Shown here in pieces: positions 81-31,111 of a stretch of DNA of 64,000 nucleotides. Each line of letters starts with the position of its first letter. The stretch's first letter is position 1. The position numbers and the translations under genes were made by a program. The notes beneath the pieces were generated by a model. It was not told the DNA's origin and did no database searches. It worked only from the letters and a program-made list of their open reading frames with translations. The DNA is taken from assembly GCA_027483605.1 (NCBI GenBank), contig JAIXUE010000041.1, forward strand, positions 1-64,000, written 5' to 3'. This DNA comes from Cryomorphaceae bacterium (GTDB lineage: Bacteria > Bacteroidota > Bacteroidia > Flavobacteriales_D > Crocinitomicaceae).

Positions 81-1307
81 TTACCTCACCACCAACTTCT
101 TCACCCATTGTAACTCACCTTGGGTTATTTGCGCAAAATAAACTCCCGGCGCATGACCACTTAGATCAAACGAATTATCAGAAGAAAGCGCATTGAGGTC
201 AAAGTGCGCAACTTGTTTACCTTGTTGATCAAGTATGGTAATTTGCATGGGTTCTGAGCTTTGTCCTGACACTTGAAAAATACCGTTTGATGGATTGGGA
301 ATGATGTCTATTTCTACCAGAGGATTATTAGAAGTTAGTCCTAGCCAACCAGGGCTGTTCGCTGTAAGCAAGGTGTGGATGTAAAGGTTGTCTGCCACCC
401 AAAGGTTACCTAGTGTATCTATCTCCAAGCCGAGGAATTCAGAGAAGTTGATTGGCGCATTGGAGGCATCAATTCTATTGATCCAATTGTTTGCTTCTAA
501 CTTGGCAATGGCAAAAGGCACATCGGCTGCATCACCAAAAACTGCCCAAAGTTGATCAAGATGGTCAAACTCAATTTCTAGCACATTCGAACTCGGCATG
601 TTTGACGTATTGTTGGGCGTAATCGTATCGAGAATGTCGTAGTTGTAGGCAAAGCTGATTCCTTTTACACCTCCTATGTAAAGAGTATCAGAAAATCTTG
701 AAAATTTTGTATCGTGAAAAACACCTTGCAAATAATTGGGATCAGCGGTTAAATTTAATTGGGAATTTGTTTGTTGGTCAAATTGATAGATTACCGAACT
801 TCCGTCGTGGCCATAGAAAAAGTTGTTTTTAGCATTGATTTTTGTGTAAAAGCGGTTAACTATCTCATTATTTCCCTGCGAGTATTTAACGAACCCATTC
901 GGAAAACCTGTAGTTACAAAAATAGTGTCTGCATTACTCTGTAAATAGAGATAATCAGGTATTGTTGAATTAACACTAATTGAAGTGAAGCCAGTAAACT
1001 TAAACAAGCCGTATAAATTTACCGCAAAATATATATCTGTAGGAGTAAATGCGAATTGAAGGTTAGATCCATTCCAAAGAGGGCCTAATTCTGCCGAAGT
1101 GAATTGCTGAATAGCACCATCATTTTTAATGACAGCCGCTTTATTGTCATTGACCAACCAAATATCATTGGTATACGGATTAATGACAAACTGCTTCCAT
1201 GCTACGGTATTGCCCGTCTGACTTTTGTGGATTGATTGCCAGGTTTGTGCCTTCAATCCATTGGGGAGGAAAAGCAGAATTATGATGATTACCAGCGTTT
1301 TTATCAT
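81..1307 (-). CDS. T9SS type A sorting domain-containing secreted protein
   Basis: A 408-residue secreted protein with an N-terminal hydrophobic signal peptide ending near residue 20 (GLKAQ). The body, about residues 25-325, looks like a beta-propeller: it carries repeated segments with the wording of two-component-sensor or WD-like propeller blades (NPYTNDIWLVND, DTLGNLWVADN). The last 75 residues form a T9SS type A sorting domain with the PNPSNGIF box, a central LDQQGK segment and a terminal GVYFAQ...WVKKLVVR. By family knowledge, the cargo crosses the outer membrane through T9SS and is then processed and attached. Its target is unknown. The C-terminal cassette is about 80 percent identical in DNA to the one in the gene ending at 3569. 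Confidence 0.9.
   Translation of the reverse strand: MIKTLVIIIILLFLPNGLKAQTWQSIHKSQTGNTVAWKQFVINPYTNDIWLVNDNKAAVIKNDGAIQQFTSAELGPLWNGSNLQFAFTPTDIYFAVNLYGLFKFTGFTSISVNSTIPDYLYLQSNADTIFVTTGFPNGFVKYSQGNNEIVNRFYTKINAKNNFFYGHDGSSVIYQFDQQTNSQLNLTADPNYLQGVFHDTKFSRFSDTLYIGGVKGISFAYNYDILDTITPNNTSNMPSSNVLEIEFDHLDQLWAVFGDAADVPFAIAKLEANNWINRIDASNAPINFSEFLGLEIDTLGNLWVADNLYIHTLLTANSPGWLGLTSNNPLVEIDIIPNPSNGIFQVSGQSSEPMQITILDQQGKQVAHFDLNALSSDNSFDLSGHAPGVYFAQITQGELQWVKKLVVR
84..262 (-). repeat. Duplicated T9SS sorting-domain cassette, copy 1
   Basis: The 3-prime end of this gene closely matches the 3-prime end of the gene at 3569-5137 (copy at about 3572-3750), by eye at roughly 80 percent DNA identity over 175 bp. 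The bodies of the two proteins are not alike. A third, weaker match limited to the last 25 bp sits at 5187-5212. Confidence 0.7.
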
Positions 1308-1310
1308 GTT

Positions 1311-2792
1311 TTAATAAATTACTAATCTTGCAACCCAATTTCTCGCCTTACCTGTAACCTTTACCTGGTATTGCCCTGCAAGTACGCGCGGAATAGCAAA
1401 CAGATACCCATCATAAGCCGAAACTTGAGAATAGAAAGCAACCCGGCGCCCGGCAAGATCAATCAGTTCGATATCAAGCAGTTCATTTGTTGGTAATTGG
1501 ATGATGAACGCTGAGCTAGCTGGATTTGGATAAATTGTCAAGTTTAGATTTGTATCTAATTGGCAACTTTGATTAGGCTCAATTGCGCCATAACAATTGG
1601 TCTTGACCAAAAAATGATCGTAGCCAAACGGAGGGCTCCAACGAAACTTGCTTCCTCCGGTAAGGATTCCGCCGTCTCTGGTGATGATGCCACCCGACCA
1701 TAAATCTGAACTATTCTCATACCCATAAGTGTGATCCCATTCTAAATCTCCTTCTTTAGTCAATTTTGCAACAAGTAATTCAAGTTGCGTATTGGTACCA
1801 AAATTCGTGTTGTCCAATCCAAAAACATACAGCTCGTCGTCTTGGTTTATGGCTAAATCGTATAGGTCGATATCTCTATTTGCTAATGTAGAAACTGCAT
1901 TTAGTAATTCTCCATTTTGATCATAATAGGCCAGGATCAATTGCTCGCTTTTACCAAATTTATTTTCAGAACAATAAATGGCTATTACTTCATTTTCAGA
2001 TGTTGAAGAAATTCCGGCTAGCACATTTTCAGTGTCAGGAATATCCAATGTACCAAAAGAATTATCTGTTGTTTGTTTTCTCCATATTTCCGACCCATTC
2101 AAATCAATTTTGATGATGTACCACTTCACCATTTCTGGATTGGGTAAGAACGGAATTGGGTCATAGTAGCTTTTCATGATGAGTATAGTTCCATCCTTCG
2201 ACGGAGCAGCCTTGACAAACACATCATTGTATAATACATTTTGCTCATGGGTAAACCATTTTTCCCACAAGAGATGTCCTTCTAAATCAAATTTGGTAAC
2301 ACTTGCTTGCGTACCAAACGTCTGATCAAAAGCTGAAGATGCAACCAAAATACCATTCTGAGTCGAGCACAACTTAGGAGATTCGTTGTCATGAAGTATC
2401 GTTGCTGGTTCCCCAAAAGGTTCTTCCCAAATCAGCTTACCTTGTTTGTCAAATTTCCATAAACACTTCTGATTAGTTTCTCCAACTTCGCTAACTAAGC
2501 CCGCAACGTATAAAAAGTCATGCAAACTTATAATTGAAGTAAAGCATACCGAAGCATGGTTATCAATCAAAATGCGATCTTTCAACTCACCTGATTTACT
2601 CACAAAAGTCAAAACACCTCGGTCCGGATTGTCAGCCGTTCTGTCCACGCCTGCAGACACAAAACCCGTACTTAACTCAGCACTACCACTCATGAAAATA
2701 TTATTTTCAGAGAAATATTGATTAAAAAATGTCGCTTGTGCAGAAGCGTAGAAGCTGATGAAAATAAAAATCGTTGCAAGGGTTCTATTCAT
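1311..2792 (-). CDS. T9SS type A sorting domain-containing secreted protein
   Basis: Secreted protein of 493 residues. The start at 2792 is preferred over the in-frame ATG at 2831 because it places the signal peptide (MNRTLATIFIF, cleaved after ASAQ) at the N-terminus. The body has repeated blades with motifs such as LWKFDKQGKLIWE and ITRDGGILTGG, typical of the PQQ-like or SBBP-type propellers often found in T9SS cargo. The C-terminus (LTIYPNPASSAF, then AGQYQVKVTG...WVARLVIY) is a type A sorting domain, divergent from its neighbours. The function of the propeller is not evident. It sits 40 bp downstream of the beta-barrel gene at 2833-3492 and may be co-transcribed with it. Confidence 0.88.
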   Translation of the reverse strand: MNRTLATIFIFISFYASAQATFFNQYFSENNIFMSGSAELSTGFVSAGVDRTADNPDRGVLTFVSKSGELKDRILIDNHASVCFTSIISLHDFLYVAGLVSEVGETNQKCLWKFDKQGKLIWEEPFGEPATILHDNESPKLCSTQNGILVASSAFDQTFGTQASVTKFDLEGHLLWEKWFTHEQNVLYNDVFVKAAPSKDGTILIMKSYYDPIPFLPNPEMVKWYIIKIDLNGSEIWRKQTTDNSFGTLDIPDTENVLAGISSTSENEVIAIYCSENKFGKSEQLILAYYDQNGELLNAVSTLANRDIDLYDLAINQDDELYVFGLDNTNFGTNTQLELLVAKLTKEGDLEWDHTYGYENSSDLWSGGIITRDGGILTGGSKFRWSPPFGYDHFLVKTNCYGAIEPNQSCQLDTNLNLTIYPNPASSAFIIQLPTNELLDIELIDLAGRRVAFYSQVSAYDGYLFAIPRVLAGQYQVKVTGKARNWVARLVIY

Positions 2793-2832
2793 ATTTTTAC
2801 GATTGTTCTTCCTGTAATTCAAGCAGCTCACC

Positions 2833-3492
2833 CTAAAAATGAAAACTCAAGCCTACTTTTAAAGATAAATCAAAGCGGTTGGGACTTCTGTCGTAAAGAA
2901 TTGTGTTTTTGAAGTAACCTCCTGTATTGAATGCGACAGTTCTTAAATCAAGCATCGTGTACAGGCTGAATCTTTTGTTCAATTGATATTGCAATCCAGT
3001 CGTGGTCGTTAATCCCAAGTTAGATTGATACCTCTTAGATAATGTTGAACAAAAAGAAATATTTGGCCCAGATCTTACATCTTGAATCCCATATCGGTAG
3101 CTGGCACCAAGGCCGTAGAAAAAACGAGTTCTTTCAGTAAGTTCCGTATAACGGTTGTACTTGAGGCAGAAGGTACCTAAAATCCTGCTGATCGTATATT
3201 TTTCTCCAACAGGATATTCATATCTATATTTCCTATAGCTGTTAGCAAGTATCGTTGCTTCTGCGGTAATACTACTCTTTTGATTCAAAGCATAAGCATA
3301 ACTCAAACCTGCTGAACCCAAAAAAACACCATGAAACAACCCCTGATCTTTGGAGGTATAATTAATATTCATGAGCGGTGTATTGTCAAAGAATGAGTGA
3401 ATCACTCCAGATTGAATCGAGATGGTGTGTCGAGATTGTGCGCTTGCGAGCTGTGTGATGCTTAGAAAAAGTAGTATGTAAATTAATTTCAT
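2833..3492 (-). CDS. Outer-membrane beta-barrel protein
   Basis: A 219-residue protein with a clear signal peptide (LFLSITQLASAQ). Alternating hydrophobic and polar strands rich in Tyr and Gly follow, and the chain ends in an amphipathic strand with a terminal aromatic (LKVGLSFHF), the usual C-terminal signature of an outer-membrane barrel. Segments such as FYGLGASYRYG and TGLQYQLNKRFSLYTMLDL fit an 8-10 stranded OmpA/PorT-like barrel (OMP_b-brl family). The role is unknown. It is the upstream member of a run of minus-strand secreted-protein genes. Confidence 0.8.
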   Translation of the reverse strand: MKLIYILLFLSITQLASAQSRHTISIQSGVIHSFFDNTPLMNINYTSKDQGLFHGVFLGSAGLSYAYALNQKSSITAEATILANSYRKYRYEYPVGEKYTISRILGTFCLKYNRYTELTERTRFFYGLGASYRYGIQDVRSGPNISFCSTLSKRYQSNLGLTTTTGLQYQLNKRFSLYTMLDLRTVAFNTGGYFKNTILYDRSPNRFDLSLKVGLSFHF

Positions 3493-3568
3493 GTCTGTAA
3501 GTTAGGATACCATAAAAGAAAGGTAACGAAATTTTTATACAACACGAGTAGTGACTAGCAGGACCGCC

Positions 3569-5137
3569 CTACCTCACCACCAACTTCTTCACCCAATGCA
3601 GATCACCTTGCGAAATATGCGCAAAGTAAACCCCCGGTGCTTGATCATTCAGATCAAATGAATTATCAGAAGAAAGTTCATCGAGATCAAATTGAGCAAC
3701 TTGCTTCCCTTGTTGGTCTAGCATGGTAATTCGCATTGGCTCAGTACTGATGCTTGAAACCTGAAAAATGCCGTCTGAAGGGTTGGGGAAAAAGCCGATT
3801 TCTGTTTCTGAAGCAGTGATCTCTTGTATGCCAACATATTGCCCATCTGGGTGATAGCCATCTGGTCCAGTGCGGTAGGTGAAAAAACTAGTAATACCAT
3901 CTTTATAGCTTCTGCCCGCAAAGATCAAATCACCATCTTCAAGAATGCTCAATGTGAAAATTTTATTGTCTGAACTTTCATCGATAGTGAAGTATTTAAT
4001 ATAGAGCAAGGGTCCATTTTTGCGATATTTGGCTACAAATTGGGTGGCCGCATAAGTATCCATATTAATGCATTGACCAATGACAAAAACTTCACCGGAA
4101 ATAGGGGAAATTTTAACGTTGTGTATGTCATATCCATACTCGGGCGGTAAGTTTCCAATCTTTTTATCCCAAATAACATTCAATGTAGAGTCTATGTATG
4201 CGACATAAACCGGATATGGATCTGGGTTTGTTCCATCGGTTGATTTAACAAAAGTAAACGCGAATGAATTTTGGGAGCCATCACAATTTAGCATCTGTTC
4301 ATCTGACTCTTCACTATTGTGATTTGGATAGTTTGCTAAAATTTCTCTAGTTGTGTATATGGTATCTGAATTCCAATGCCATAATACAGGACAAAGTGTG
4401 TATCTGTTTAACTGGTTGGTAGAATATTGCCTTTGAAAACTTCCAAATGTCAAATAATCGTTTTTGTAAGGGAATGTTCTTTCAGCTATCCCATTCATAA
4501 CTATTAGATTTTGATATGTATTTGTAATTGGTAAGAGGGCACTATCTACTATCAATCCATTGTCATTAATATTAATCAAGAAAGGAAATGCAAGGGGAAA
4601 TGCAGAAACAGGGGTCCCAACTGAAGAGGGATAATCCTTCCACCCAGAAGCTATGTTCACATCAGGTCGAATCCTGTCAAAAGCAGAAATAATTGTACTT
4701 GTATCAGAATCAACGGGAAACTTATTTATTTCAAATTCTCCGTTAGGATTGAGCTTTGTAATTTTTATTGAATCATCTATACAGTTCGAATTTGAAACGC
4801 ATATAACACTTGTAGCCATCAAAATATTTTCATCTGAAGTAAATGTTATTCCCACAACTGGCGAGAAAACTGAATCCCGATAATCCCATACAGGAGTATT
4901 AGAAAATTTATTTATCTTGATTAGGTAGTTTGAAAATGTTGCCTTTCCTGATAAATAATAAAAGTCATTTTTTTCCTCTATGGTAAGTGGTTTGAAACCT
5001 ACTAAACTACTAGAAAGATCACCTAATGTTGGTGTTGAATAATAATACCTCACCCCTCTCAAATCGTTGGTTGTTTGAGCAAAGAGATGTTTCAGGACAA
5101 AGAGCTGCAGAATCATTAAAAGAATGAGCTTTTTCAT
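3569..5137 (-). CDS. T9SS type A sorting domain-containing secreted protein
   Basis: A 522-residue cargo protein with a signal peptide (LILLMILQLFVLKHLFAQ). It has a long beta-rich body with propeller-like repeats (GEVFVIGQC, GDLIFAGRSYKDG) that report-style families share. The C-terminal sorting domain has the FFPNPSDGIF box and ends in WVKKLVVR. The last 60 residues are nearly the same as those of the gene at 81-1307, while the bodies differ, which points to exchange or duplication of the sorting cassette. A catalytic residue set could not be recognised. Confidence 0.88.
   Translation of the reverse strand: MKKLILLMILQLFVLKHLFAQTTNDLRGVRYYYSTPTLGDLSSSLVGFKPLTIEEKNDFYYLSGKATFSNYLIKINKFSNTPVWDYRDSVFSPVVGITFTSDENILMATSVICVSNSNCIDDSIKITKLNPNGEFEINKFPVDSDTSTIISAFDRIRPDVNIASGWKDYPSSVGTPVSAFPLAFPFLININDNGLIVDSALLPITNTYQNLIVMNGIAERTFPYKNDYLTFGSFQRQYSTNQLNRYTLCPVLWHWNSDTIYTTREILANYPNHNSEESDEQMLNCDGSQNSFAFTFVKSTDGTNPDPYPVYVAYIDSTLNVIWDKKIGNLPPEYGYDIHNVKISPISGEVFVIGQCINMDTYAATQFVAKYRKNGPLLYIKYFTIDESSDNKIFTLSILEDGDLIFAGRSYKDGITSFFTYRTGPDGYHPDGQYVGIQEITASETEIGFFPNPSDGIFQVSSISTEPMRITMLDQQGKQVAQFDLDELSSDNSFDLNDQAPGVYFAHISQGDLHWVKKLVVR
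3572..3750 (-). repeat. Duplicated T9SS sorting-domain cassette, copy 2
   Basis: Second copy of the cassette described at 84-262. Both copies encode the conserved blocks LDQQGKQVA, LSSDNSFDL, APGVYFA and WVKKLVVR in the same order and spacing. Confidence 0.7.
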
Positions 5138-5182
5138 AGGCGGCTTTTCTTAGATTACGAAAAGGTTTGGAGAAAGGGGGGC

Positions 5183-6478
5183 TTACCTCACCACCAACTT
5201 CTTAACCCACCGATTTCCTCCTTGCGTAACCTGCGCAAAATAAACTCCGGGAGTTTGATTCGAGAGATCAATTGATAATTTTCCGTTTCCTACTAATGCA
5301 GCTTGATGCACAACTTGCCCAAGTTCATTGTAAACTAAAAGTGTTGCATTTCCTGTTTGGATGCCAGAAACATCGAAAATACCATTTGTAGAGGGGTTGG
5401 GAGAAATTTGAATTGGGTTGTTCGCATTGTCATTAAATCCACCGACATTTTGGAGCGGTTGCGTGACATAATTTGTTGTGATGCCGCCTGCGTTTGTAGT
5501 TTTGAGCAACTTGATCATACCTGAATCTTGGTTCACAGCCAAAGCGTAGGCGATATCGTTGTCAATGAATTCAATGCGTGTAAAATAAAGTAAAGAATCA
5601 GAAGGTAATGTGCATTCTTGTCTGAAAAAACTTTGACCTCCATCCATGCTTCGCAATGGTCTTTGGCTAACTGCGAATATTCCACTTGCATTAAGGGCCA
5701 CATCTGAAATGCCTTCGTCTAAAAAGTGAAGAACCGTTGTGCTACCACCAAGTTCAGAAATGGTAAGCGCGCGTAACGTGTTTCCCCATCCATCATTACA
5801 ATTGTTTGTTCGTATCAAGGTATCTCCGTAAGAACTCGTAAAACCTACGCCTCCAATCCCATAACAATCGAGGGTGTTTGTTTGAGAAGCAAGAGAAGAG
5901 GTATTCGTTAAATACACGTCATTGTTGTAAAAAGTAGCTATTTCCGACCCTAAATGAACAGGGAATTGGCCGGAGGTGGTATTCAATAAAGTCCAACTCG
6001 TGCCATAGTCATTGGTTTGATACATTCCTGCATAACAACTGACAAATCCAGTGCTATCATTTGTGAACACCATGCAATTTCTGTCTAGAAGACCTAAAGT
6101 ATTGAATATTTCATGTTGAGTCCAAGTCTGACCAGCGTTTAAAGAACGATAAATTTGTTTGCTTTGATACGCATTTGGTGTACCAAGATTGATGTCCACA
6201 TTACCAGCAGCATAAATAATTGAATCCGTTACCATAACCATACTTCTGAAGAACCCCGCTACCGTAGTAGTAGAATCCCAGGTCATGCCACCATTTGTAG
6301 TCCGGTAAAAAGTGCTTTTGCTGTTATTGTATGAAATAAGAAATCCTTTTTGCTCATTTAAAAAATCGAAATCCGTAATAGATTGAATAGGCGATGTTGC
6401 GTCAAATGTTTTCACTGGGCTCCATTGAGCAAAAGCTGCGTGGCATAACAACAGCATAGTGAGTAATGGTAGTTTCAT
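5183..6478 (-). CDS. T9SS cargo with YCF48/BNR-like propeller repeats
   Basis: A 431-residue secreted protein with signal peptide MKLPLLTMLLLCHAAFAQ. The body contains several Asp-box or YCF48-like repeats: STFYRTTNGGMTWD, IYRSLNAGQTWTQ, MYQTNDYGTSWTLL and PLRSMDGGQSFF. These indicate a sialidase-type beta-propeller of the photosystem assembly/BNR group, which here probably serves as a binding scaffold because no catalytic set is visible. The C-terminus (ISPNPSTNGIFDV, then GVYFAQVTQGG and WVKKLVVR) is a type A sorting domain; its final 12 codons match the two neighbouring cargo genes. Confidence 0.9.
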   Translation of the reverse strand: MKLPLLTMLLLCHAAFAQWSPVKTFDATSPIQSITDFDFLNEQKGFLISYNNSKSTFYRTTNGGMTWDSTTTVAGFFRSMVMVTDSIIYAAGNVDINLGTPNAYQSKQIYRSLNAGQTWTQHEIFNTLGLLDRNCMVFTNDSTGFVSCYAGMYQTNDYGTSWTLLNTTSGQFPVHLGSEIATFYNNDVYLTNTSSLASQTNTLDCYGIGGVGFTSSYGDTLIRTNNCNDGWGNTLRALTISELGGSTTVLHFLDEGISDVALNASGIFAVSQRPLRSMDGGQSFFRQECTLPSDSLLYFTRIEFIDNDIAYALAVNQDSGMIKLLKTTNAGGITTNYVTQPLQNVGGFNDNANNPIQISPNPSTNGIFDVSGIQTGNATLLVYNELGQVVHQAALVGNGKLSIDLSNQTPGVYFAQVTQGGNRWVKKLVVR

Positions 6479-12713: not shown

Positions 12714-14180
12714 ATGAAAGCGCAGCAAGATCAACTCGTCATTTACAATACACTCAAAGGAGAAAAAGAACCTTTTGTCCCGATCGTAGCGGGGCGTGTT
12801 GGAATGTACGTCTGTGGGCCAACACTTTACAGCGAGCCCCATATGGGTAACATGCGCACTTTTATCAATTTTGACCTCATTTACCGTTATCTCCTGCATT
12901 TAGGTTTCAGTGTCAAGTATGTCCGCAACATCACTGATGCCGGCCATATCACGAATTCAGCTGGCCAAGAGGTAGACAGCATCGGCGCGGCTGCCAAAGC
13001 TGAGCAGCTACAGTCTTTAGAAATTGTCTATAAATATGCGGTCAAGTTTCAAGAATTACAGCGCATTTACAACCTCTTACCGCCTTCTATAGAACCAACC
13101 GCTACACAGCACATTCAAGAGCAAATCGAAATCATTGAGCAAATTATAGCCAATGGTTATGCTTATGAAGTGAACGGCTCTGTTTATTTTGATACGCGTC
13201 GCTACATGCAAGATTTCAACTATGGTATTTTGAGTGGGCGCAAAGTAGACGAGCTCGAAAACGAAACCAGAACGCTCAACGCCCAAGACGAAAAGCGTTT
13301 CTTTGCCGATTTCGCTCTCTGGAAAAAAGCCAACCCCGACGACATGCAAATTTGGCGCTCGCCTTGGGGCAACGGCAACCCTGGTTGGCATATCGAGTGC
13401 ACAGCAATGAGTACCAAATACCTCGGCAAGCAATTCGATATCCACGGTGGCGGCATGGACCTCAAATTTCCGCACCACGAAGATGAAATTGCGCAAAGTT
13501 GCGGCTCTTTTGGTTGCAACCCTGCCCGCTACTGGATGCATGCTAATATGCTCAATGTCAATGGCCAAAAGATGTCGAAGTCTTTTGGGAATTATTTTTT
13601 GCCAAAGCAAATCTTAGATGGTAGTACGGGCTTATTTGATAAATCTTATTCTGCCAATGTAGTGCGTTTTTTCATGATGCAGGCCCATTATCGCAGCAAC
13701 TTAGACTTCACCCAAGACGCACTCAATGCGGCAGAAAAGGGCTTGTCTAAACTCACAGACGCCATTGCTACACTCGAGCGTATCCAACCCGCAGCGCAAT
13801 CATCTTTTGATGTCAACATGTTGGTTCAGTCGTTCTATAAAGCCATGAACGACGACTTCAATGCGCCAATTCTTGTGGCTAATTTATTTGAAGCCACACG
13901 ATTAATCAACTTAGTCAACGATGGCAAAGAACATATTTCTTCACCAGACCTCGCTCTTTTAAAAGAGAAAATGACGGTATTTGCTTATGATGTGTTGGGC
14001 TTGCAAAAAGAAGCTGCTGGCTCAGAAAGTCGTTTAGCGCCTGTCATGGAGCTCGTTCTAGATTTGCGTGGCCAAGCCCGAACCAACAAAGACTGGACAA
14101 CCTCAGATCAAATTCGAGATGGTTTGGCCAAAGCCGGAATTGTAGTCAAAGACGGTAAAGACGGAACTACTTGGAGTTGA
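12714..14180 (+). CDS. cysS: Cysteine--tRNA ligase
   Basis: A 488-residue class I aminoacyl-tRNA synthetase charging tRNA-Cys. Visible motifs: [13 protein letters not shown] (zinc Cys plus the HIGH-type signature PHMGN) near residues 31-44, the further zinc ligands in GWHIECTAM and HHEDEIAQS, and the KMSKS loop in [11 protein letters not shown]. The C-terminal anticodon-binding DALR-type helical part is present. The length is normal for the family. Its stop overlaps the convergent DUF3050 gene by 14 nt. Confidence 0.97.
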
Positions 14181-14940
14181 GTTTGGCTTGAACGCCATCC
14201 CACAACGCGTAGCGTTTTTCGAGTGCTTGAATAGAAACCTCAGTTGCTTCTTGCCACTTGATGGCATCCGAACCACAAATTTCTTGCATCATTTGAAGTG
14301 ATATAGGACCGTGATCACCGCCGTCTATTTCGATATGTCTTTCGAGGTAATAGAGTAGTTTGTCGATATTGGTTTGTCCTTGGCTTTGCATTTCGCGCAA
14401 GATTTCAATGAACATATCGGGGATGAGGTCTTCTCTGCCAAAGGTAAACAACGCTGCAATTTTGTGGAGTTGCCCGCTGTTGATGATTTCAAAAGTGAAG
14501 CGAACAAACGCGCGTGTTTCTTCTCGGATTTCTAGTTGGTAGAGGGCTTCATCTAGTGTTTTGCCATAGGAAAGCCACTCGGTGAGTTGGTGAATAGGTA
14601 GCGTGTTGGCGCCAATTTGCTGCATGGCTTCCAAGTACATTTCAAAGTGACTAAGCACTTTGCCGTCTTTGTCGAGGTCAGACTCTTCGCCTAATACAAT
14701 TTCATTGATGAAGCGGCGGGTAACTGGAGATCCTTTTGGAGCCCACGGAACTTCTACGCAAGTGAGGTTGCGCTGCAAGGCTTTGAGCAGGCTCATGAAA
14801 TCCCAAACGGCAAAGATGTGTTGCTCCATGAACACCTGAAAATCGGTGCTGCTATGGATTTGAGCATACATCGGGTGCGCCAATAGTTTGGTGCGTTGTG
14901 CGCTGAGCGCAGCTTGAAGTTGATCGATTTGTGGGTTCAT
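14167..14940 (-). CDS. DUF3050 domain-containing protein (heme-oxygenase-like fold)
   Basis: A 257-residue all-helical cytosolic protein of the DUF3050 family. Diagnostic segments are FMEQHIFAVWDFMSLLKALQ, RFINEIVLGEESD and YYLERHIEIDGGDHGP. The spacing of acidic residues and histidines (E...H in the first helix pair; E, D and H in the later HIEIDGGDH block) is like the metal ligands of heme-oxygenase-like di-iron oxidases, but no activity is established that I can name. It has its own start on the minus strand, 25 bp downstream of aspS, and may be the last gene of the aspS transcript. Confidence 0.8.
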   Translation of the reverse strand: MNPQIDQLQAALSAQRTKLLAHPMYAQIHSSTDFQVFMEQHIFAVWDFMSLLKALQRNLTCVEVPWAPKGSPVTRRFINEIVLGEESDLDKDGKVLSHFEMYLEAMQQIGANTLPIHQLTEWLSYGKTLDEALYQLEIREETRAFVRFTFEIINSGQLHKIAALFTFGREDLIPDMFIEILREMQSQGQTNIDKLLYYLERHIEIDGGDHGPISLQMMQEICGSDAIKWQEATEVSIQALEKRYALWDGVQAKLNSK

Positions 14941-16750: not shown

Positions 16751-17737
16751 TTAAAAGCCGTTTCTGCGCAAGTAAGAAGTATCGACCAAAGCGCTAAAAA
16801 AATAGAGGAGTTGTGCTTTTTCTTTTTCCGATAGTTCAAATGCGACAATCCGTGGGTCTTGTAGCGGATGTTTGGCTCCACCTTGCTGGTAATGCGCAAG
16901 GACTTCCGCCAAAGAAATTTTACTGCCGTCGTGCATGTATGGATAGGTGAGTGGCAGGTTTCTTAATGATGGAATTTTGAATTTGCCAATGTCGGATGAA
17001 TCGTGGTGTATCCGAAAACGCCCTTGGTCGGTTTGGCCTTCATAGCTAGAGTATAAGCCATTGTTGGCCGCTTCATAGGTTGTGAAATAAGGTGCCGGAT
17101 GACACTGCGTGCAGTAGAGTTTGTCAGAAAAAATTCGCCACCCAGCAACTTGATCTTTACTCATCGCCTTTTTATTGCCGGCCATGTATTGATCAAATGG
17201 CGCGTTCAAAGAAAGTAGGCTGCGCTCAAAAGCGGCAAGGCTGCGCGTCAGTACCCATGCGTCGAAGTCTCGTCCAAAAATAGCCTGAGCCGCGGCTTGG
17301 TATTCGGGAATTTGGCGCAATTGCTTGATCAGGTTTTTCATGTTATGCCCCATTTCTACGGGCTCTTGAATGGGCACAATAGCTTGTAACTCAAGTGTAG
17401 CCAAATGCGCGTCGAACATGGCGGTTTTCAAGAAAGCGGCATTGAGTATGCTGGGCGCATTGCGCTCGCTGAGCTGCCCCTTAATGCCAATACTTTTGCT
17501 TCTTTGGTCGCTGAAGGCTTTTTTTGGATCGTGGCAGCTCGCACAAGAAATGCTGCCGTCTAAGGATAGGCGCGTATCAAAAAAGAGTTTACGCCCTAAA
17601 GCGATTTTCTCGGCATTTTGAGGATTATCTGTTGGAGCAGGTACAAGAACTGTTGCGTTCAAGTCTTGGGTTTGACCACAGCGGAGGGTCACAAAACCAC
17701 TAACGAAAAGCAGCGCTATGGATAAAAAGCGCAGCAT
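16751..17737 (-). CDS. Di-heme cytochrome c peroxidase / MauG family enzyme, MbnH-like
   Basis: A 328-residue exported di-heme protein. The N-terminus is a hydrophobic export signal with Cys20 (a poor lipobox). Two c-type heme motifs are seen: CASCH at 65-69 and CTQCH at 209-213. The family segments LGRKLFFDTRLSLDGSISC, RNAPSILNAAF and YPYMHDGS are present. The family includes CcpA peroxidases, MauG and MbnH. Because the gene directly follows an MbnP-like gene (3 bp between the CDSs), the MbnH role, tryptophan oxidation on its MbnP partner, is the most likely. An ordinary H2O2-scavenging peroxidase remains possible; the heme ligands that would decide cannot be read by eye. Confidence 0.85.
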   Translation of the reverse strand: MLRFLSIALLFVSGFVTLRCGQTQDLNATVLVPAPTDNPQNAEKIALGRKLFFDTRLSLDGSISCASCHDPKKAFSDQRSKSIGIKGQLSERNAPSILNAAFLKTAMFDAHLATLELQAIVPIQEPVEMGHNMKNLIKQLRQIPEYQAAAQAIFGRDFDAWVLTRSLAAFERSLLSLNAPFDQYMAGNKKAMSKDQVAGWRIFSDKLYCTQCHPAPYFTTYEAANNGLYSSYEGQTDQGRFRIHHDSSDIGKFKIPSLRNLPLTYPYMHDGSKISLAEVLAHYQQGGAKHPLQDPRIVAFELSEKEKAQLLYFFSALVDTSYLRRNGF

Positions 17738-17740
17738 GGT

Positions 17741-18715
17741 TTAGGGTTTTACGATGCGAAAAGATTGGCACTGCCCTTTTGTAGTTTGCACACTCACCAG
17801 ATACATACCACTGCTTAAACGATCTAGAGGGATGTTTGCCGCAATGTTTTGAACTTGCTCATCTAGTAATGTTTGTCCGGTATTGGAGTATACTTGATAA
17901 CGTTCAATGACTTGATTTTGAACGCCGTGGATCATGACCTCAGTAGTGGATTGTTTCCAAGACACCAAATTATTTTCGGTCTCTTGAAGATTTGCTGACT
18001 GATCTAATGTAAATACGTTTTGTGTGTTTACATTTTGCAAAACATTGAGATTGAGGCCGCTTTCGCCATGCAGCACTCCTACACTAGACAGTGGCATTTG
18101 ATTGAACCAACGATCGATATGACAGTTATAATGAAGGTCAATTTGATGAGCGCTTGTGGTTTGAACTACCGGTAGCGAGACATCTTGTTGGTTATTGTTG
18201 CCAAAATTGTGTAATTCAAAGTAGGCATTAGGAACGCCGTCGTTGTTGCTATCGGCCTTTCCGCCGGCGATCATGTGCATGTAACCAAAAGACCAACCCC
18301 AATACATGGAAGGACTCTGAAAGCTCAAAGGATGGGAATCTGGATAAGTGGAAATATCTTGAGCAAGCGCACCGGCCTGTATATTGTATCGTTTGGGCAC
18401 ACCTATTGTAAATTGAATAGAGTCAATTTGTTGGATGGGTAAGTAACCCAAGTAAAGGCTATTTTGAACTGGAGTGACTAACCAGATGTCTGTGGGCAGG
18501 TTGGTTTGTTGCCCGTTGTCGTGAAATAACTTGACGTCGGATAAGTAATAATTGAAGTGTTCAATGCGCACAGCAACGCCGTCATTGCCCGTAAAGTTTT
18601 GGTTCAACACAAAAGGTTGGTTTGCAAAAACTGGATCCAGATTTAGAAAAATATTTTTTTGGGACCAACTTAAGAAGGTTGTAGCCAGAATTGTGGTTAG
18701 AAAAAGTATTCTCAT
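17741..18715 (-). CDS. MbnP-family copper-binding protein with T9SS sorting domain
   Basis: A 324-residue secreted protein with a signal peptide ending near LSWSQ (residue 18). Residues about 20-225 match the MbnP family (IEHFNYYLSDVKL at 51-63, QIDSIQFTIGVP, and SMYWGWSFGYM at 136-146 with the conserved Trp pair). In methanotroph MbnP/CorA a Trp is oxidised to kynurenine by the partner MbnH and takes part in copper binding. A linker follows, and a C-terminal T9SS-like tail (YQVYSNTGQTLLDEQ...SGMYLVSVQT) sends it to the cell surface. It overlaps the upstream methyltransferase by 4 nt and precedes the di-heme enzyme, so the three are probably one transcript. Confidence 0.82.
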   Translation of the reverse strand: MRILFLTTILATTFLSWSQKNIFLNLDPVFANQPFVLNQNFTGNDGVAVRIEHFNYYLSDVKLFHDNGQQTNLPTDIWLVTPVQNSLYLGYLPIQQIDSIQFTIGVPKRYNIQAGALAQDISTYPDSHPLSFQSPSMYWGWSFGYMHMIAGGKADSNNDGVPNAYFELHNFGNNNQQDVSLPVVQTTSAHQIDLHYNCHIDRWFNQMPLSSVGVLHGESGLNLNVLQNVNTQNVFTLDQSANLQETENNLVSWKQSTTEVMIHGVQNQVIERYQVYSNTGQTLLDEQVQNIAANIPLDRLSSGMYLVSVQTTKGQCQSFRIVKP

Positions 18716-19491
18716 GCTATCGACTTTTTAAAAATGTATAAGACCTCATCTTTCATGAGGCGAAAGCGTTTAATTTCTTCTGTAGAGTAGTGAGAATGAA
18801 AATCAAAAATATGAGTTTCAAAACCTACTTTTTCTAAGTAAGTTGGGTAATCTTTTGCGAACAAGCGCACGTGGTCTTTTTGCCAATAATGCTTTTCGCG
18901 GTCTGCTTCGGTGATGATTGCAGGGTCTTCATAGGTGGTCTCTCTCGAGAAATCTTGAGGTACTTGCATGATGGCCCAACCGCCAGGTTTCATGACCCGG
19001 AATAATTCTGACATACACTGAATGGGGTCTTGGACATGTTCCATAACGTGGTTGCAAAAAACGACATCGAAGCGCTGGTCTTCGAGTGGAATTTGATGTA
19101 AATCAAAATGTAGGTCAGCGATGGGTGAAACGAGATCTGCGGTGAGGTAGTTGAGGTTTTTTTGTGCTTTGAAGCGATCGATGAAACACTGCTCGGGAGC
19201 CATATGCAGCACCGACAGGTTTTCTTGGGTAAAAAAGTTACTGTGGTTTTTAAGGTAGAGCCACATGAGGCGGTGGCGCTCTAGGGTGAGATCATAGGGG
19301 CAAAGTACGTTTTCGCGGTGTGCCACTTGCGAACCATAAGACAAAAACTTAGAGAAAGATTTTTCACAAACGGGGCAACTTACGGCCTCTCCTTTGTACA
19401 AAACCGGAGCAACTAAACGAAAAAGATAGCTCAGCCGAATAAGTATAGGCCGAGGCAGTTTATTCAAGAGGTATTTGTAGAGTTTCTTCAC
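18712..19491 (-). CDS. Class I SAM-dependent methyltransferase with N-terminal Cys pair
   Basis: A 259-residue cytosolic methyltransferase. Residues about 30-60 carry CPVC and a further NVLCPYD Cys, a small zinc-ribbon-like lead seen in this family. The Rossmann domain follows: LHMAPEQCF (SAM loop, though not the classic GxGxG), DLVSPIADLHFDLH, FDVVFCNHVMEHV (motif post II) and MKPGGWAIMQVP. GTG at 19491 is taken as the start because it yields MKKLYKYLLNKLPRP, the N-terminus I associate with this family. The substrate is unknown; relatives often sit near polysaccharide or lipid genes. Confidence 0.8.
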   Translation of the reverse strand: MKKLYKYLLNKLPRPILIRLSYLFRLVAPVLYKGEAVSCPVCEKSFSKFLSYGSQVAHRENVLCPYDLTLERHRLMWLYLKNHSNFFTQENLSVLHMAPEQCFIDRFKAQKNLNYLTADLVSPIADLHFDLHQIPLEDQRFDVVFCNHVMEHVQDPIQCMSELFRVMKPGGWAIMQVPQDFSRETTYEDPAIITEADREKHYWQKDHVRLFAKDYPTYLEKVGFETHIFDFHSHYSTEEIKRFRLMKDEVLYIFKKSIA

Positions 19492-30282: not shown

Positions 30283-31095
30283 TTAGTTTTCAATTTTGAT
30301 GAATTTTTCTGACTTGTTGTCGTAATTGATAAAGTAGACGCCACTCACAATATTCGTGCAGTCTACCGAAGAACCAAAACCGGTTTTGAGCAGATTTCCA
30401 TAAGCGTCATAAATCTCGTATTTCGTTTTAGCTACTTGATTTTTAGCCTTGAATGTGAGCGTGGAATGCACTTTTGTAGGGCTAAACGTTACACTGGGAA
30501 TGCTAGAAGTAAAACTGGTACTTTTTGAGGCTCTGGGCTTTCCGGAACTATCGGTTTGGCTTACTCTGACTGTGTTTTTACCCGAATGTGGGGTCAGTTG
30601 AAACTGATAGGTGTTGCTTCCTTTCATACCTTTGCCTTTGACTTGCCCGACTTCTACCCAGCGCCCCCACTTGTATTGCTCAATGCTGAAATCGAGCACC
30701 GCTTGTTCATTGGTGGTGGTCCAGGTCAAACTACCGTCTTTTTGAGCACTAATTTGAGTGCACTCAAACGTGCTTTTTGGCAATAAAATACTTGGATTGA
30801 GGAAGCGAGGTTCACAACCGGCTGCATGCTCGAGCACTACAAAAACTTCATCGCCTTTCTTCAAGTGAAAGAGTTGGAAGTCTATTTCGAAATGAGAAGT
30901 TTGGATTACGGCCGGTAAAATTTCGCCATTGACCAATACTTTACTAATGCAAAAGCCAAAACCGTCCGCCATTGGGGGGTTGTTGACCAGCAAATTCTTT
31001 TCTTGGTATGTACCCTCCAGTGATAGCAACTGCACCTGCGCTAAAACCGAGGAAAACTTGAAAATCACGAGCAAAAAAAGTATCCGGAGGCCCAT
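30283..31095 (-). CDS. T9SS type A sorting domain-containing secreted protein
   Basis: A 270-residue cargo protein. The ATG at 31095 is preferred because the -7 box at 31112-31119 lies only 1 nt from the ATG at 31110; both give an N-terminal signal peptide (ILFLLVIFKFSSVLAQ). The middle is a beta-sandwich of fibronectin type III look (SLTWTTTNEQAVLDFSIEQYKWGRWVEVGQV). The tail (VHSTLTFKAK, then YDAYGNLLKTG and GVYFINYDNKSEKFIK) is a type A sorting domain. The role is unknown; two Cys pairs could form disulfides. Confidence 0.83.
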   Translation of the reverse strand: MGLRILFLLVIFKFSSVLAQVQLLSLEGTYQEKNLLVNNPPMADGFGFCISKVLVNGEILPAVIQTSHFEIDFQLFHLKKGDEVFVVLEHAAGCEPRFLNPSILLPKSTFECTQISAQKDGSLTWTTTNEQAVLDFSIEQYKWGRWVEVGQVKGKGMKGSNTYQFQLTPHSGKNTVRVSQTDSSGKPRASKSTSFTSSIPSVTFSPTKVHSTLTFKAKNQVAKTKYEIYDAYGNLLKTGFGSSVDCTNIVSGVYFINYDNKSEKFIKIEN

Positions 31096-31111
31096 ATAGA
31101 AGCTTTTCATA

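Follow-up and report, generated by a model that had tools for sequence, protein, structure and literature searches.

MbnP and MbnH of methanotrophs form the closest described counterpart of the genes analyzed here. The structure 7l6g, deposited as 'Metallo-mystery pair system four-Cys motif protein', is MbnP of Methylosinus trichosporium OB3b, and the structure 6e1c is MbnH of the same strain; in 7l6g, Cu(I) is bound through a His, a Met and the kynurenine into which MbnH converts the first Trp. Here, we describe a related gene pair of a Cryomorphaceae bacterium (GTDB family Crocinitomicaceae), which is located on the first 64,000 nucleotides of contig JAIXUE010000041.1 of assembly GCA_027483605.1; this whole stretch, numbered on its forward strand, is referred to as the window. 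The pair is of the known MbnP/MbnH kind. What is new is that the MbnP carries a C-terminal sorting tail of the type IX secretion system (T9SS) and that its MbnH partner lacks the Trp between the two hemes. No report of a T9SS-tagged MbnP was found in the literature returned by our searches, outside of which the key papers on OB3b MbnH and MbnP lie.

Functional precedents come from the methanotroph systems MopE/SACCP and CorA/CorB, for which the available parts of the reports describe a surface-associated Cu(I) protein with a kynurenine and a co-transcribed relative of the di-heme peroxidases (PMC3912023, PMC3621798). In these excerpts, two His ligands are described for MopE as well as for CorA (PMC3912023), and MbnP is stated not to be markedly similar in sequence to either of them (PMC3621798). 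Concerning the enzymes, the accessible text of the BthA study states that a Trp lies between the hemes of MauG and of the characterized bacterial cytochrome c peroxidases (bCCPs), that this Trp was found to be necessary in MauG for stabilization of bis-Fe(IV) and formation of tryptophan tryptophylquinone, and that BthA has a Ser at this position and still forms bis-Fe(IV) (PMC6405878). T9SS substrates, as summarized in the available part of the source, carry a Sec signal together with a C-terminal domain and transit via the periplasm (PMC12618676).

An earlier note, made from the letters of the window, had proposed a methyltransferase, an MbnP-like protein and a di-heme MbnH-like enzyme in one transcript. 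The three open reading frames (ORFs) lie as claimed on the minus strand (Table 1), with a 4-bp overlap between the methyltransferase and MbnP genes and a 3-bp gap between the genes for MbnP and the di-heme enzyme. Among 120 homologous loci with long MbnPs (some species are possibly counted twice; the named contigs L033-L041 overlap other sampled genomes), MbnH is directly downstream of MbnP in 107, and the gap is between -4 and +10 bp in 92 of these. The methyltransferase gene is directly upstream of MbnP in 79 of the 120 loci, 63 of them with a gap in the same range. This spacing suggests that the three genes form a single transcript.

The window MbnP matches PF20243 with an E-value of 5.6e-27 and 95.3 bits at a gathering score of 27. 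W139 and W141 are present in all 192 aligned MbnPs and Met137 in 187; thus, the Trp pair, on whose conservation in T9SS-tagged homologues the earlier note had made its proposal depend, is invariant. The putative ligand His169 is present in 98 of the 111 long family MbnPs, in 38 of 40 MbnPs from other families and in all 41 short MbnPs. Gln19, after the signal, is found in 111/111 long family MbnPs. A profile of the short MbnPs aligns to 7l6g weakly (E 0.036), with M-x-W-x-W and then a His in the same order. By comparison with 7l6g, Met137 and His169 are considered putative copper ligands. Neither the window MbnP nor a mixed profile retrieved an MbnP entry from the PDB sequences, and MopE and CorA were not among the matches listed for searches with the window MbnP and MbnP profiles. 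In the predicted structure of the window MbnP, for which nine similar sequences were used, the predicted local distance difference test (pLDDT) is below 50 over residues 13-247, so that only the tail of this model is usable. As an observation of its own, His216 (window 18068-18070) is invariant in the 111 long family MbnPs and present in 15 of the 41 short ones, and might be an extra ligand of the tailed kind.

The tail itself scores 33.6 bits with TIGR04183, for which the cut-off is 23, and 36.6 bits in the scan of the whole genome. The best structural match of the modelled tail is the C-terminal domain (CTD) of RemA in the T9SS (8gl6_D; Z 11.8, rmsd 1.6, 75 aligned residues); the search with the MbnP model returned matches for the tail only and is not informative for the MbnP domain. 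The genome encodes SprA (2327 bits), the only T9SS component searched for, and has 97 TIGR04183 matches at E 0.001, of which five score below the cut-off; T9SS tails are, therefore, ordinary in this organism, and the sorting tail proposed in the earlier note is borne out by profile, fold and genome. At E 0.001 or better, TIGR04183 matches 81 of the 111 long family MbnPs, 25 of the 40 from other families and none of the 41 short MbnPs; long MbnPs missed by TIGR04183 were counted as tailed on length alone, by which 29 of the 40 other-family MbnPs are tailed. When 192 MbnP domains are placed in a tree, the 140 that belong to tailed proteins group together with a support of 0.40, which is 0.92 with one extra tip included. 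The genome scan places seven T9SS tails within the window, that of MbnP included. Elsewhere in the window, T9SS tails (PF18962) end four of five successive minus-strand genes at 81-6478, and a 275-aa protein (30283-31110) has weak DOMON and T9SS-tail matches, both below the Pfam cut-offs.

The di-heme enzyme aligns over residues 34-323 to 6e1c (E 3.5e-44), and TIGR04039 matches 30 of 30 relatives of the window MbnH at E 1e-20 or better. The earlier note had left it to alignment whether MbnH-type heme ligands are present; both CXXCH motifs and the Tyr position are kept in all 96 MbnH partners of long MbnPs, as are Pro122 and Glu128. Tyr283 lies at the position of the axial Tyr ligand of MauG. 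The start of the protein is signal-like, and 88 of the 96 partners have a Cys at position 20. By contrast to 6e1c, the position between the hemes is occupied by Phe108. Among the 96 partners, this position is F in 72, Y in 8, L in 8 and W in 8, and it is W in 27 of the 39 other MbnHs of the alignment set. Chance is excluded as the source of the MbnP, tail and enzyme profile matches. Together, the PF20243 match, the WxW motif and the MbnH-type heme binding support, at the level of sequence, that this is a true MbnP/MbnH-type pair, as the earlier note had supposed.

Table 1. Features of the methyltransferase-MbnP-MbnH locus in the window.
Feature	Position	Strand	Basis
Class I SAM methyltransferase	18712..19491	-	259 aa, GTG start; Methyltransf_11 E 1.3e-14
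MbnP-like protein with signal peptide, MbnP domain and T9SS tail	17741..18715	-	324 aa; PF20243 residues 21-210, TIGR04183 residues 265-323
M137-Y-W139-G-W141, putative copper-ligand Met and WxW, with W139 as the expected oxidation site	18293..18307	-	conservation; order in 7l6g
His169, putative copper-ligand His	18209..18211	-	177/192 aligned MbnPs; His in same order in 7l6g
T9SS C-terminal sorting domain, residues 249-324	17744..17971	-	TIGR04183 over cut-off; model pLDDT about 67-90; RemA CTD match
MbnH-like di-heme enzyme	16751..17737	-	328 aa; CCP_MauG E 1.4e-52, TIGR04039, 6e1c
First heme motif CASCH (C65-H69)	17531..17545	-	96/96 partners of long MbnPs
Phe108 at inter-heme Trp position	17414..17416	-	Trp in 6e1c, 3o5c and 1iqc alignments
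Second heme motif CTQCH (C209-H213)	17099..17113	-	96/96 partners of long MbnPs
Tyr283 at position of MauG axial Tyr ligand	16889..16891	-	96/96 partners; Tyr also in 6e1c

The genome contains a second MbnP-MbnH pair on another contig, with an untailed MbnP of 245 aa, the start of which is lipoprotein-like, and a 357-aa MbnH that has the inter-heme Trp. MbnB, the only methanobactin gene searched for, has no match in the genome (TIGR04159), in line with the earlier note, which had seen no methanobactin precursor gene. Of 200 family genomes, 194 contain PF20243, as do 97 of 395 genomes sampled across the phylum, and 110 of the 200 contain a match to the window MbnP itself at E 1e-20 or better. 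The earlier note had suggested surveying Bacteroidota for tailed MbnPs next to MbnH. With a profile of tailed MbnPs, 130 of 299 genomes of the order give matches at E 7.5e-46 or better (74 belong to the own family and 56 to other families), a few of the matched sequences ending before the tail; in a phylum sample, 13 of 385 match this profile at E 1e-40, two of them from the own genus. The nearest named contigs are mostly assigned to Crocinitomicaceae, Cryomorphaceae or other Flavobacteriia. In three loci (L134, L140 and L141), two tandem genes for tailed MbnPs precede one MbnH gene. An apparent natural MbnP-MbnH fusion, a single ORF of 493 aa in L041, was rejected as an artefact because its join consists of a run of N.

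MbnHs without the inter-heme Trp, referred to as Trp-less, are common beside tailed MbnPs. When the count is restricted to loci in which one or more MbnHs are complete (280-420 aa), with identical MbnHs dropped and incomplete or missing ones left out, 123 of 129 loci with a tailed MbnP have a Trp-less MbnH within the fetched stretch and six have solely Trp-type enzymes there, and 58 of 68 loci with untailed MbnPs only, which are mostly the best PF20243 hits, have a Trp-type MbnH. In each of ten genomes examined further, including those of all six exceptions, a Trp-less MbnH is encoded somewhere. Most tailed loci of the family of the window organism have a Trp-less MbnH alone beside MbnP. In other families, there are 15 tailed loci where MbnP is followed by two MbnHs, one Trp-less and one Trp-type, and the order untailed MbnP, Trp-less MbnH, Trp-type MbnH is found in 16 of 20 regions hand-picked from high-scoring hits for MbnHs matching the Trp-less profile (in one of the 16, L346, the last MbnH is short and doubtful).

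A first tree of MbnHs had pointed to the Trp-less enzyme as a mark of the tail alone, with a clade of 123 (support 1.0) made up entirely of MbnHs from loci with tailed MbnPs. This was ruled out by the Trp-less enzymes beside untailed MbnPs, and for the same reason the claim is narrowed to two-enzyme operons. In a wider tree of 304 MbnHs, from which column 108 was omitted, 163 of the 170 tips of one group are Trp-less (support 0.72); the next larger group (support 0.07) has 176 tips, of which 169 are Trp-less; the MbnH trees were built from unique proteins, and the wider one excludes proteins under 270 aa. A sound statement of these sequence data is that Trp-less MbnHs mostly form one weakly supported group linked to two-enzyme MbnP operons and that tailed MbnPs go with this group. 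Beyond this, we speculate, while holding it to be less probable than its opposite, that MbnP maturation in Bacteroidota may use two enzymes, a Trp-less and a Trp-type MbnH, and that lineages with T9SS display may often have kept the Trp-less enzyme alone, which would oxidize a protein Trp by a di-heme route without an inter-heme Trp relay in a surface copper system that would have no link to methane and be widespread in one Bacteroidota order. As a separate observation, the axial Tyr is replaced by Phe in 11 of the 304 MbnHs, 10 of which are in the Trp-less group; such enzymes occur in two-enzyme MbnP operons of other families among L333-L352 (e.g. at 2960-3994 in L343 and 2563-3588 in L351).

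Based on these data, we suggest a model in which MbnP and MbnH would both reach the periplasm by Sec and the MbnH-like enzyme would there oxidize W139, the first Trp of WxW. Cu(I) would be held by Met137, His169 and the modified residue. After oxidation, the T9SS tail would take MbnP across the outer membrane, and the copper site would end up on the cell surface or in the medium to capture or buffer copper, a role that has also been proposed for MopE and CorA in methanotrophs. By analogy with the described systems, oxidation of W139 in the periplasm with export afterwards would be the natural order, and extracellular capture or buffering of copper appears to be the most likely role. The enzyme might work without the inter-heme Trp, as BthA forms bis-Fe(IV) without it, or be assisted by a Trp-type MbnH from another locus. 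Taken as a whole, the idea that the pair makes a Cu(I) protein of the kynurenine type that is secreted or held at the surface, works like MopE and CorA and is matured before T9SS export is in our judgement evenly poised.

Several points weigh against this model. In TIGR04052, the NCBIfam equivalog model for MbnP, the window MbnP has 40.1 bits and misses the cut-off of 140, because of which it is assigned to the broader Pfam family alone; with the Pfam tail model PF18962 it scores 22.1, below the cut-off of 27; and TIGR04039 ('MbnH family di-heme enzyme') is the best NCBIfam model for the window MbnH with 249.2 bits, below its cut-off of 362.85. The putative His ligand is missing in 13 of the 111 long family MbnPs. 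No copper gene was seen adjoining the pair, nothing in the adjoining genes proves copper, and both the kynurenine and the copper site are putative. MbnHs of the group to which the window enzyme belongs persist without an adjacent MbnP. In Methylomicrobium alcaliphilum, according to the accessible part of the report, a knock-out of a di-heme partner grew faster and the authors thought that copper was still bound (PMC3912023). Finally, the inter-heme Trp that is reported to be necessary in MauG is missing, and the enzyme may do something else.

What this something else could be is spelled out by an alternative in which the Trp-less enzyme is not a Trp oxidase but a peroxidase, an electron acceptor or a helper in a two-enzyme reaction, and the tailed MbnP is also modified by a Trp-type MbnH from another locus, which in this genome would be the one next to the second MbnP. 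The Phe at the inter-heme position, the Trp in the second MbnH of the genome, the succession of Trp-less and Trp-type MbnHs after MbnP in the 15 tailed other-family loci and in the 16 selected untailed ones, and the persistence of MbnHs of the group without MbnP beside them would all fit this explanation. Yet the Trp-less enzyme stands alone and closely spaced beside MbnP in most tailed loci of the family, it keeps all heme ligands, and BthA, in the available text, forms bis-Fe(IV) without this Trp (PMC6405878), and we hold the alternative to be rather unlikely. Clearly less probable still is that the tail or the copper site does not function as read, i.e. that MbnP stays in the periplasm or that WxW serves a purpose other than copper. 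The low PF18962 score, the 30 of 111 long family MbnPs that miss E 0.001 with TIGR04183, the incomplete conservation of His169 and the lack of copper genes seen nearby point in this direction; however, the predicted fold of the tail is that of a T9SS domain in a genome with SprA and 97 tail matches, and WxW is invariant.

The methyltransferase, the role of which the earlier note had left open, could be part of the system and modify MbnP or MbnH before export. Its position directly upstream of MbnP in the 79 long-MbnP loci would be in favor, as would 18 of 20 regions selected among high-scoring MbnH hits, in which it adjoins MbnH without an intervening MbnP (L293-L306 and L308-L311). The MbnHs of these 18 regions are Trp-less in 15 cases and fall in the tree among the MbnHs of the tailed loci of the family, and the simplest reading of such loci is that MbnP was lost. 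However, the methyltransferase is present in 170 of the 200 family genomes, compared with 110 that have a tailed-MbnP match, so that at least 60 have the former without the latter; in 20 further methyltransferase loci, chosen by hand from methyltransferase hits, neither MbnP nor MbnH is adjacent in 15 and MbnH alone is adjacent in five; and the methyltransferase was not seen in the fetched flanks of any of 29 other-family loci (L221-L249). Moreover, a divergent prolyl oligopeptidase gene adjoins the methyltransferase gene in 61 of 96 loci, which is why plain synteny explains part of the link, and no export signal was seen in the methyltransferase sequence. A function in the system is, therefore, very improbable, and the methyltransferase is probably just a neighbor. 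Of the other window genes, one encoding a DUF3050 protein (PF11251, E 3.4e-101; 14167-14940) lies between the genes for aspartyl- and cysteinyl-tRNA synthetase.

If the surface copper model is true, kynurenine copper sites would not be confined to methanotrophs but would be exported by the T9SS in many bacteria of this order, providing a route for copper handling at the outer surface. The natural loss of the inter-heme Trp also offers a ready test of whether this residue is needed for oxidation of a protein Trp, a matter on which MauG and BthA disagree.

Compared with the methanotroph MbnP/MbnH pair, the window pair is alike in the adjacency of its genes, in the order of M-x-W-x-W and His (in a weak alignment) and, for the enzyme, in the full-length alignment to 6e1c with both heme motifs and the Tyr; it differs in the T9SS tail of MbnP, in the Phe that replaces the inter-heme Trp and in that MbnB was not found in the genome. 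BthA of Burkholderia is likewise an enzyme of the bCCP/MauG superfamily without the inter-heme Trp, but it has Ser rather than Phe, it is conserved in Burkholderia and an MbnP partner is not mentioned in the accessible part of the study (PMC6405878). MopE and CorA would be the nearest functional precedents, a likeness that we propose by analogy; as far as the excerpt describes them, they differ in having two His ligands (PMC3912023). Like type A substrates of the T9SS, the window MbnP has the TIGR04183 match and the fold of the C-terminal domain, as in RemA, but here the cargo is an MbnP domain.

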